From Thioalkalivibrio sp. XN279 (lineage in GTDB: Bacteria > Pseudomonadota > Gammaproteobacteria > Steroidobacterales > XN24), in assembly GCF_011089885.1 (NCBI RefSeq), contig NZ_JAANBD010000028.1:425746-489745 (forward strand): a DNA stretch of 64,000 nt. Reading direction: 5' to 3'. The translations under genes were made by a program, and so were the position numbers. Every line of letters begins with the position of its first letter. Positions within the stretch are counted from its first letter, which is position 1. Below the pieces are notes generated by a model. That model worked only from the letters and a program-made list of their open reading frames with translations, did not search any database and was not told where the DNA came from. This document shows positions 30,073 through 45,248 of this stretch, in pieces.

Positions 30073-30353
30073 CGGCACAGGCCCGGTCGGGGACGCTGTG
30101 AATACGTCCCTGTACGCTCGCTCGCACACGTCCCTGTGTGCGAGCGCCCCGAACCGGCCTGTGCCACATCACGCAGCTGCAGCGGTGGCAGCAGACGCGT
30201 CCGAGCTGCCGCGTCGGGCTGCGCGGCGGTCGGCTCGGAGTGCGGGAGGGACTCGCGCCAATCCTGCGCGTGGCGCTCGCGCACAGGACGTGCGCGAGCG
30301 AGCCTACAGGGACGTATTTACGGCGTCCACGCGCAGGATTGGCGCGGGTCCCT
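30073..30353. repeat. Nested palindromic repeat array between xseA and metX
   Basis: The 316-base gap holds stacked inverted repeats. Hairpin 1 is 30120-30130 / 30137-30147 (11 bp, loop GTCCCT). Hairpin 2 is 30275-30285 / 30291-30301 (11 bp, loop AGGAC). A 25-base arm at 30102-30126 is repeated inverted at 30295-30319 with one mismatch. A 26-base arm (30249-30274) is repeated inverted at 30328-30353 with one mismatch. A further imperfect pair flanks hairpin 1. I see no coding region. It resembles REP/BIME-type extragenic palindromes and may also end xseA and metX transcripts. Confidence 0.75.
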
Positions 30354-42267: not shown

Positions 42268-42335
42268 GGACGGGAAAAGCCTGCAGGCGACGGGGCGAAT
42301 TGGTATTCTACCCGGCTGTTGGCGGAGAGTATCCA

Positions 42336-43136
42336 ATGCATCCCTTGTTGAACATCGGCGTCCGCGCCGCGCGCCGCGCCGGCGACCTGATCATCCGGCA
42401 CATCAACCAGCTCGACGCCATCAAGGTCGACACCAAGGGCCGCAACGATTTCGTCAGCGAAGTCGACCGCATGGCGGAAGACGACATCATCCAGACGGTG
42501 CGCCGCAGCTACCCGGATCACGCCTTCCTGGCCGAGGAAAGCGGCGCCAGCGGCGATGCCGAGTTCGTCTGGATCATCGACCCGCTGGACGGCACCACCA
42601 ACTTCCTGCACGGCTTCCCCGTCTTTGCGGTGTCCATCGCCGTCATGCAGCGCGGACGGCTGGAGCACGGCGTGATCTACGACCCCATGCGCCAGGAATT
42701 GTTCACCTGCAGCCGCGGCACCGGCGCGACGGTGGACGGGCGCAAAATGCGCGTCAGCGATACGCGTGTGCTGGCCAGCTCGCTCATCGGCACCGGCTTC
42801 CCCTACAAGGAAGACCCGGAGTCCCTTGACCCCTACATGGCCATGCTGCGCGACGTCATCTGCCAGACCGCGGGGGCACGCCGCCCCGGCGCGGCGGCCC
42901 TCGACCTTGCCTATGTAGCAGCGGGCCGCCTGGACGGCTTCTGGGAAATCGGCCTGAACATCTGGGACATCGCCGCCGGCGCGTTGATGATCCAGGAGTG
43001 CGGCGGCATCGTCACCGACCTCGGCGGGCGTGACGGCTGGCAGCAGAGCGGCAACATCGTCGCCGGCAACCCGCGCATCCACGAGGCGCTGCTGAAGCTC
43101 ATCGAGCCGCACCTGACGCCCGGCCTGCGGCGCTGA
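42336..43136 (+). CDS. suhB: Inositol-1-monophosphatase SuhB
   Basis: A 266-residue magnesium-dependent phosphatase. Metal-site motifs: EESG (FLAEESGAS), WIIDPLDGTTNFLHGFP and the C-terminal GLNIWDIAAGALMIQECGG. In E. coli SuhB also joins the rRNA antitermination complex and aids ribosome assembly. GGAGAG lies upstream of ATG 42336. Length matches E. coli SuhB (267). It is divergent from trmJ. Confidence 0.96.
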   Translation: MHPLLNIGVRAARRAGDLIIRHINQLDAIKVDTKGRNDFVSEVDRMAEDDIIQTVRRSYPDHAFLAEESGASGDAEFVWIIDPLDGTTNFLHGFPVFAVSIAVMQRGRLEHGVIYDPMRQELFTCSRGTGATVDGRKMRVSDTRVLASSLIGTGFPYKEDPESLDPYMAMLRDVICQTAGARRPGAAALDLAYVAAGRLDGFWEIGLNIWDIAAGALMIQECGGIVTDLGGRDGWQQSGNIVAGNPRIHEALLKLIEPHLTPGLRR

Positions 43137-43180
43137 ACCCGCCGGCCGCCTGGCCGGCCGGCTGCCTGCAAGACCTGTCC

Positions 43181-43256
43181 GCGGCCGGGGCATGACAGGG
43201 CCCTGCTCGCTTAGAAATCTTTATGCGCTCGCAGGGCCCTGTCATGCCCCGGCCGC
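43181..43256. repeat. Palindromic element A (26 bp perfect stem, 24-base loop)
   Basis: Arms 43181-43206 and 43231-43256 are perfect inverted copies. The 24-base loop starts TCGCTTAGAAATC and ends ATGCGCTC; read on the other strand it matches the loop of element B at most positions. It lies 44 bases after suhB and may also terminate it. Confidence 0.8.
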
Positions 43257-43333
43257 TGCGCTGGTTGCCGGTCTGCCAGCCAGGTGCAGGCGGGCCAGGT
43301 TGCCGGAGGATACGCGGACAGGCCGCCGCAGTA

Positions 43334-43409
43334 GCGGCCGGGCCATTGCATGGTCCTTCGAGCGGCATAAGAATTCCAAGCGAGAAGGACCATGCGATGG
43401 CCTGGCCGC
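43334..43409. repeat. Palindromic element B (26 bp stem, 24-base loop), opposite to element A
   Basis: Arms 43334-43359 and 43384-43409 are inverted copies with two differences, both of which would be G-U pairs in a plus-strand RNA. The loop GAGCGGCATAAGAATTCC plus AAGCGA is the reverse complement of the element A loop with a few changes. The outer GCGGCCGGG is shared with A, but the inner stem sequence differs. Confidence 0.8.
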
Positions 43410-43448: not shown

Positions 43449-45248
43449 TCAGCTCGCGTCGGCCGGCTCCGGCGGTGCGAAATAGAGCAGCTTCCAGCCG
43501 CTCTCCGGCTTGAAGGGCTGCTCCTCGGAGAACAGCTGGAACAGGCCGTCGGGGTTCACGCCGCCGATGAGCACCCAGTACTCGCCCTGCTCGCCCAGCC
43601 GCTCGCGCATCTTGTCGAGGCCGTAGTTTTCGCTCAGGCGCGTGGTCTGCATGGTCCAGCCCTCGTCGAGGCGCTCGTGCAGCGTGCAGTAGTCCTCGCC
43701 ATCGTCGAAGGCCGCGTGGCCGCGCTGCTGCAGCGTCATGCGCTTCGACTCCTTGCGCGACTCCTGGTGCGTGGCGAGCTGGAACGTGCGATGGCGCCCG
43801 AAGGCGCCCCCGCGGGCCTTGCACACCAGGGCGTTGTAGAAATCGTTCTCGGTGGCGCACAGCAGGTAGCTGAGGTGCTGCACCTCGAGTTCCTGTTCGG
43901 CGTGCTCCGACAGGATCTCGCCGTAGTAGGTGTCGATGTCGTCCATGCGCAAGGGCTTCAAATGGCTGTATGAGCCGTCCGTCACCAGCACGTTGACGTC
44001 CATCTTCTTGAGTGCCACGGCGAGGGCGTGCGTCCACGGCGTGGCGCCCACGATCAGCAAGCCGTTGGCGCGGCGCGCAGAGAGTTCGAGCCGGCGCGTA
44101 ACGAAACCGATGGACAGGCCGTGCGCCAGCGCCGTCACCACGATCACCAGGAACACGATGGGCAGCAGCAGCTCGGCGTCCGGATGGCCGCCCTCGACCA
44201 TCGCCGGGCCGAAGATACTCGCAGCCGCCGCGGCCACGATGCCGCGCGGCGCAATCCAGCCAAGCAGGAGCTTGTCCTGCTTGCGCATCGGCGCGCCGAG
44301 CGTCGCCAGCGCGATGGTCAGCGGTCGCACCAGGAACAGGATGGCCACGACGAACAGCACCAGGCGCCAGTCGAGCAGGCCGAGCTGGCTGAGTTCAAGC
44401 TGCGCCGGAATCACGATGAACAGCACCGACAACAGGATGATGCTGAGGTTTTCCTTGAAGTGCTGCAGCGCCTCGCGCTCGATGAGCTGCATGTTGCCGA
44501 TGACGACGCCCATGATCGTCACGCTGAGCAGGCCGGCCTCGTGCTGCACCAGGTTGGTGGCCCAGTAGGCGGCCAGCACGAGCACCATCAGCAGCGGCGG
44601 CTTGAGATGTTCCGACACCCAGCCGCGCCGGAAGAACCACCCCACCAGCCATCCCCCCACGCCACCCGTCAGCGCGGCTGCAGCCAGCGCCGTGCCGAGG
44701 CTGAAAAAGGTCTCGCTCAGCTCGCCGCCGGCGACGGTGAAATACTGGAAGGTCAGCACGGCCAGCAGGACGCCGACGGGATCGTTCGCGATACCCTCCC
44801 ACTTCAGCAGCGAGGCCGACTCCTTGTTGAGACGGGCCTGGCGGATCAGCGGGCCGATCACAGTGGGCCCGGTGACCACGAGAATGGCCCCAAGCACCCA
44901 GGCCACCGGCCAGCTCAGGCCGGCGATGTAATGTGCCGCGGCGCTGCCGAGGAGCCAGGCCAGCGGCGGCCCGAGCACGGTGAGACGGCCGATGCCGTGG
45001 CCTACGCGCTTGAGCTCGCCGAGCTTCAGCTCCATGGCGCCTTCGAAGAGGATGATGGCGACGCCGAGGCCGATCAGTTCCGTCAGCTCGCCCGGCGGCA
45101 TGCCGAGCTGGATCACGCCGGTCACCGGGCCCAGCACGAAGCCGGCGGCAATGAGGATGACGATGCTGGGCAGCTTCAGGCGCCAGGCCAGCCACTGGCT
45201 GGCGAGCCCTACCAGCAGGATGAACAACAGCAGCGTGGCGCCATGCAT
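43449..45248 (-). CDS. CPA1-type sodium or potassium/proton antiporter with C-terminal TrkA-N domain
   Basis: A 599-residue inner-membrane protein. About twelve to thirteen helices fill residues 1-395, with the ion-site motif KWEGIANDPVGVLLAV (Asn-Asp) and the LGWIAPRGIVAAAAASIF segment typical of CPA1 exchangers. Residues about 405-525 form a Rossmann TrkA-N domain (GLLIVGATPWTHALAVALKK) that binds a nucleotide and usually gates the exchanger. The cation is not clear; potassium/proton and sodium/proton exchange are both possible. It stands alone between a palindromic array and secF. Confidence 0.88.
   Translation of the reverse strand: MHGATLLLFILLVGLASQWLAWRLKLPSIVILIAAGFVLGPVTGVIQLGMPPGELTELIGLGVAIILFEGAMELKLGELKRVGHGIGRLTVLGPPLAWLLGSAAAHYIAGLSWPVAWVLGAILVVTGPTVIGPLIRQARLNKESASLLKWEGIANDPVGVLLAVLTFQYFTVAGGELSETFFSLGTALAAAALTGGVGGWLVGWFFRRGWVSEHLKPPLLMVLVLAAYWATNLVQHEAGLLSVTIMGVVIGNMQLIEREALQHFKENLSIILLSVLFIVIPAQLELSQLGLLDWRLVLFVVAILFLVRPLTIALATLGAPMRKQDKLLLGWIAPRGIVAAAAASIFGPAMVEGGHPDAELLLPIVFLVIVVTALAHGLSIGFVTRRLELSARRANGLLIVGATPWTHALAVALKKMDVNVLVTDGSYSHLKPLRMDDIDTYYGEILSEHAEQELEVQHLSYLLCATENDFYNALVCKARGGAFGRHRTFQLATHQESRKESKRMTLQQRGHAAFDDGEDYCTLHERLDEGWTMQTTRLSENYGLDKMRERLGEQGEYWVLIGGVNPDGLFQLFSEEQPFKPESGWKLLYFAPPEPADAS

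Follow-up and report, generated by a model that had tools for sequence, protein, structure and literature searches.

Among the dispersed units of bacterial genomes, Correia/NEMIS and ERIC are MITEs with RNA-level roles, and the attC sites of integrons combine a variable, covarying stem with recognition of one folded strand, their conservation residing in end boxes and not in the loop. For Correia/NEMIS and ERIC-type MITEs, the abstracts of two papers serve here as background (PMC2649163, PMC2229807). The closest described relatives of the present locus are the REPs, palindromes of 20-40 bp that have a GTAG or CGTC foot, a stem of 5-13 bp and a loop of 2-20 nt. They often form head-to-head dimers, lie mostly between convergent or unidirectional genes, and frequently contain G-T pairs (PMC3733652). 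TnpA_REP binds and cuts one strand only, contacting the foot, loop or bulge (PMC8266576), and REPINs display compensatory spacer changes (Bertels and Rainey 2011, PMC3116915). The TIR repeats that occur with TIRYT transposases, as in TIRtrons, comprise families that can be self-complementary (PMC3733652).

In the window, by which we mean the whole 64,000-nucleotide stretch of DNA analysed, two large hairpins separate suhB, a gene of the inositol monophosphatase family (42300..43136, + strand), from a convergent gene encoding a Na+/H+ exchanger with a TrkA-N domain (43449..45248, - strand). Hairpin A (43181..43256), 44 bp downstream of the suhB stop, is loop-forward on the + strand, with a perfect stem (26/26 bp) and a 24-nt loop (43207..43230, +) of the conserved class I, for which the family consensus is CTCRCTYRGAANTCTTNNNNCGCTCG, closing C-G included. 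Hairpin B (43334..43409), 39 bp short of the end of the exchanger gene, is loop-forward on the - strand; two of the 26 pairs of its stem are G-T as read on the + strand (A-C on the other), and its loop (43360..43383) is of class I when read on the - strand. Both stems agree with the original prediction in coordinates and pairs. The loops, said there to share most of their bases, have 18 of 24 in common when read in the same sense (TCGCTTAGAAATCTTTATGCGCTC vs TCGCTTGGAATTCTTATGCCGCTC), and are thus similar without being identical. Folding z-scores of the two hairpins range from -8.5 to -11.4, and the longest perfect stem (loop 14-45) was 10-16 bp when the window was dinucleotide-shuffled 30 times, against the 26 bp of the real sequence; the pair is far beyond chance. 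An outer foot, AAGACCTGTCC, precedes hairpin A (43170..43180, +), CCTGNCC being conserved outside the hairpins of this genus; the inner foot of A is TGC (43257..43259, +; 5'-GCAG on the folding strand), and that of B reads 5'-GTAG on the folding strand (43331..43334, +), its last G forming the first base of the stem. The intervening spacer (43257..43333), at 77 bp, is shorter than those of related full-length units. Hairpins A and B are the two ends of one copy of a dispersed repeat family. At the suhB locus, A is common to the host genome and G001, and B has no counterpart in G001; an empty site was sought in G002, where synteny at this position is lost. A further large inverted repeat in the window (30247-30353), with a 33 bp stem, 5 mismatches and a 41-nt loop, contains the core CTACAGGGACGTATTTACGGC, of which a 3-mismatch copy lies at 30095-30115 on the - strand, and looks like a member of another repeat family.

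A search that used only hairpin A as query brought up further genomic copies, usually arranged in oppositely oriented pairs. From 35 copies, read on the loop-forward strand, a covariance model (R1) was built; it scores hairpins A and B at 90.0 and 80.5 bits, and gives 56 matches in the host genome, some of which are both strands of one hairpin; choosing the better strand leaves at least 53 hairpins, a lower bound given that the census scored 150 candidates and found loops of classes II and III only in part. R1 matches number 34 and 15 in the two congeners, one of which is Thioalkalivibrio sp. XN8 (the XN8 locus genome yields identical matches and coordinates); 31 hairpins were sampled from these two genomes, and in the remaining four genomes of the taxonomic family R1 has no match. 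Matches are also numerous in two MAGs, CR_Sed_300A_bin.102 (37) and Woeseiaceae PMV_4.73 (19). Across the order, 10 of 396 genomes, distributed over families f1, f7, f11 and f15, have R1 matches at E <= 1e-4, which is an underestimate owing to strict filters; there is no hairpin at the single f11 match, and f15 copies carry the same loop on stems that are unrelated and reach 57 bp. Besides the genus, two further families of the order have copies of the hairpin family. Beyond the order, distribution was sampled by one exact pattern; the matches on contigs L022, L024 and L026 (Armatimonadetes, Saccharibacteria and Verrucomicrobiales) have no stem and were taken as chance, and the loop motif was absent from viral contigs. 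A search of open-licence papers returned none on such a family, which is apparently so far undescribed.

The original prediction had read the differing yet complementary stems of A and B as the mark of a structured element, and had proposed that further copies and compensatory stem changes be sought. Copies are many, as above, and the covariation is family-wide. In a 35-sequence alignment, 19 of 20 stem pairs have changed on both sides, the covariation score is 0.673 (0.201 +/- 0.015 when shuffled, at most 0.149 when slid), and pairing holds in 91.2% of cells (64.3% after shuffling and no more than 44.5% after sliding). Compensation is also evident in place at orthologous sites, with GACAGGG/CCCTGTC becoming GGCAGGG/CCCTGCC at L113/L142, and GTCACAGG/CCTGTGAC standing against GTCATGGG/CCCATGAC at L128/L146. 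Such changes suggest that stems are kept up at single loci, something that pure mobility would not call for and that tells against a mobile unit. Stems in the family are mostly 22-28 bp (range 22-57 bp) and loops 20-26 nt, the loop being conserved far more than the stems, across families. With a free stem, a conserved loop, dozens of copies, and sister species in which a site holds a pair, a single hairpin or nothing, the family amounts to a natural covariation experiment.

Among two-hairpin clusters, 32 of 33 consist of a loop-forward followed by a loop-reverse hairpin, none has the reverse order, and one has a flipped loop (L116 14463-14545); in no other hairpin is the loop reversed with respect to the feet, the remaining 83 of 84 sharing one orientation, and a template switch probably gave rise to the flip. 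Whole units of 217-441 bp, with spacers of up to ~280 bp, are 75-85% identical at unlinked loci and occur in both orientations. On the folding strand of hairpins in the genus, 5'-GYAG stands ahead of the stem and GGNCAGG behind it, and inner-side conservation ends after ~3 bases; the GCAG/GTAG foot is absent from copies in other families, whose conservation is confined to the loop. Hairpins typically lie ~25-60 bp past stop codons, at sites called by a simple codon-usage gene finder as 34 convergent, 16 tandem and no divergent, with L137 2501 probably divergent on inspection. One orthologous locus carries a pair in the host genome, a single hairpin in G001 and none in G002, and several orthologous sites, L115a/L145a and L133/L147 among them, are occupied by different subfamilies in G001 and the host; turnover at preferred sites, by insertion or conversion, is real. 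At the sites compared, intergenic DNA was too diverged for a target-site duplication to be read. Genes enclosed by distant hairpins were considered as parts of autonomous elements and rejected, as they encode a Fic protein, an aminopeptidase, an SBF transporter and threonine synthase, with no transposase among them. Loop-loop kissing within a pair was likewise rejected as a constraint, since partner loops differ in many pairs.

The imperfect pairs of the stems carry information on which strand folds. When the innermost 22 bp are tallied across 84 hairpins, the loop-forward strand (CTCGCT...CGCTCG) has 92 A-C cells and a single G-T; the same A-C cells are G-T on the opposite strand, and wobble is thus tolerated only there. 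Reduced to distinct five-base contexts the counts are 42 A-C vs 1 G-T (sign test 1e-11), and while these contexts are partly dependent, the copies being related, within the genus there is no doubt about the direction of the asymmetry. The stem finder weighted A-C and G-T equally, and the loop-forward construction of R1 would bias against the outcome observed. Copies in f7 have 29 A-C vs 6 G-T, or 20 vs 6 in distinct contexts. Each hairpin, then, has one strand on which its imperfect pairs are wobbles, and this hints at a single folding strand. By the family rule, the - strand is the predicted folding strand of hairpin A, and the + strand that of hairpin B, both imperfect pairs of which are G-T/G-U there. 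Wobble asymmetry thereby offers a purely computational test for the strand on which a palindromic repeat is folded and read; at 1 vs 92 the result is unusually clean, and it distinguishes reading by the flanking mRNA from reading by machinery that belongs to the element, an issue still unsettled in most REP-like repeats.

That issue can be addressed with the 19 hairpins lying between tandem genes or next to them. Where the gene reads the hairpin loop-forward there are 0 G-T and 12 A-C, and where it reads loop-reverse, 1 G-T and 13 A-C. Being equal in both gene directions, the asymmetry goes with the element rather than with the host transcript. This weakens the interpretation of the hairpins as mRNA terminators and suggests that the folded element is recognised on a specific strand, either as single-stranded DNA or as the element's own RNA. 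We tentatively prefer the former, because a low-power search of the window copy returned no promoter-like site and inner conservation ends so soon after the stem.

Taken together, we give roughly even odds (about 0.5) to the interpretation that the family is a non-coding, dispersed REPIN/MITE-like unit of 220-440 bp with a large hairpin at each end, the two being inversely oriented. A putative trans-acting protein would recognise each hairpin folded on its outward-reading strand, in the form 5'-inner foot GYAG, stem, loop CGAGCG...AGCGAG, stem and outer GGNCAGG-3', the substrate most likely being single-stranded DNA as for TnpA_REP/RAYT proteins. Such recognition may once have copied or moved the units, which would have accumulated 3' of genes, and chiefly between convergent genes, insertion presumably doing little harm there; effects on the suhB and antiporter mRNAs, if any, would be secondary.

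In outline the family works like REPs and REPINs, on a larger scale. Resemblances to REPINs and REP doublets (PMC3116915; Di Nocera et al. 2013, PMC3733652) include extragenic inverted doublets, their location at convergent and tandem sites, the occurrence of singlets as remnants, compensatory changes, G-T pairing and, in this genus, a GTAG-like unpaired foot on one strand. Like REPs proper, the family has the inverted doublet as its main unit (32/33) and occupies extragenic convergent or unidirectional sites. Unlike REPs, however, its stems measure 22-57 bp and not 5-13, and its 20-26 nt loops are the most conserved part; unlike REPINs, it has spacers of up to ~280 bp in place of 20-100, and no REPtron was found. 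It departs from the strict REP description in two respects: its palindromes are not small, and no cognate RAYT flanked by the repeats was found. TIRtrons (PMC3733652) are matched in that RAYT-like genes of the genus are flanked by inverted repeats, but these differ in sequence from the family hairpins. As a short, non-coding, dispersed unit with inverted ends (217-441 bp), the family resembles a bacterial MITE; compared by description with the Correia/NEMIS and ERIC abstracts, it shares their 100-400 bp non-coding intergenic format, inverted ends and RNA-foldability, and differs in that each end is a complete hairpin with a covarying stem and conserved loop. Integron attC sites, by general description, are similar in their variable covarying stem and single folded strand, whereas conservation here lies in the loop, and there is no cassette array. 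We file the family as a variant of the REPIN/MITE kind. A system distinct from REP/RAYT, in which a putative protein would read the conserved loop on one folded strand, leaving stems free so long as they pair, and the loop alone would confer identity and orientation, is a possibility that we entertain tentatively.

That the hairpins instead act as RNA elements at gene 3' ends, as bidirectional transcript-end barriers whose copies spread by recombination or mobility, we consider somewhat doubtful. In this model a convergent mRNA would pass the near hairpin, and the distal, loop-reverse hairpin would block 3'-5' exonucleases or aid termination, which accords with the placement 25-60 bp past stops, the strong preference for convergent sites, the tolerance of G-U on the relevant strand of the distal hairpin, the in-place compensatory changes at orthologous loci, and the great stability of the RNA folds. 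Yet tandem hairpins that host mRNA reads loop-forward have 12 A-C and no G-U, there are no U-tracts, and single hairpins at convergent sites mostly adjoin the gene by which they are read in the sense that does not fold. Intrinsic terminators were rejected separately, with no sites called, 24-nt loops and no T-run. The structured RNA envisaged by the original prediction accordingly retains a place as a possibility, though hardly inside the flanking mRNAs, as the wobble asymmetry ignores gene direction.

A special case of the REPIN/MITE-like unit would be strictly RAYT-mobilised REPs, belonging to the GTAG superfamily and left with a dead transposase in this species; we regard it as rather improbable. 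The GYAG foot on the folding strand fits, as do the Y1 genes in 8 of the 8 other hairpin-bearing genomes tested (a count of hairpin-bearing genomes only) and a RAYT relic in the host. The host genome has no intact Y1 transposase (PF01797); a RAYT protein query recovered a relic (L191; G000:C28, around 176498) beside a DnaJ-like gene, its N-terminus and an apparent C-terminal piece kept and its middle deleted, with intact relatives in congeners. Against this version, 18 Y1 loci searched with R1 had no convincing family hairpin within ~1.5 kb (one weak match, E 0.67), the foot is missing in other families, and the host genome, where RAYT is dead, has the most copies and an equally strong asymmetry (41 A-C, 1 G-T). 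A RAYT origin is therefore possible, without support from the usual association of gene and repeat, and the RAYT of the genus is no more than a candidate mobiliser of the units. The proposal of a REP-like family moved by a transposase thus holds for its first part, in the inverted extragenic doublets 3' of genes, strand-specific folding and genus GYAG foot; as to the transposase, the host offers only the relic, and RAYTs of relatives lack family hairpins within 1.5 kb. Other inverted repeats adjoin two Y1 genes (L189 1443-1493 and 2233-2273; L193 428-497); these are of CCTTACGT type and TGGGGACWGTCCCC type, unlike the family hairpins, and could be the true partners of the two transposases.

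We think it unlikely that the units encode their own small RNAs, with spacer promoters transcribing outward and the hairpin forming part of an sRNA whose loop is protein-bound or pairs with targets. The folding strand is always the outward-reading one, and the loop is conserved far beyond the stems and across families, as such a function would have it, but a low-power search found no promoter-like site in the window copy, inner-side conservation ends after ~3 bases, and no Rfam family matches at cut-off; Rfam structured RNAs were rejected on the last ground, sub-threshold matches being mostly of microRNA type. Least probable, and already disfavoured, are passive palindromes kept paired without selection by template switching during replication, a process which homogenises arms and inverts spacers (PMC8604942), and of which the L116 loop could be a product, but which is strand-blind and cannot yield 1 G-T vs 92 A-C, leaves loop conservation between families unexplained, and could flip loops that nonetheless share one orientation in 83 of 84 cases, which suggests that loop orientation is functional.

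Class I loops are not the only kind. A second loop class, CTCGGTTA(3-8 nt)GATGCCCTCG, occurs on the same type of stem at L120, L125, L131, L138 and L225-L230, with mixed class I/class II pairs at L120 and L131, and a third, GCAGGCATCTGAGCCAA, shares the same GCAG and GGTC feet (L227 921-989 and 1725-1793). At least three loop classes (I, II and III) occur on similar stems and feet, as if one scaffold had given rise to different readers or variants. In G002, hairpin units are repeated between peptidase M20 and dsbB genes (L149 2501-5513), and two of these units are 93% identical, as if by local amplification.
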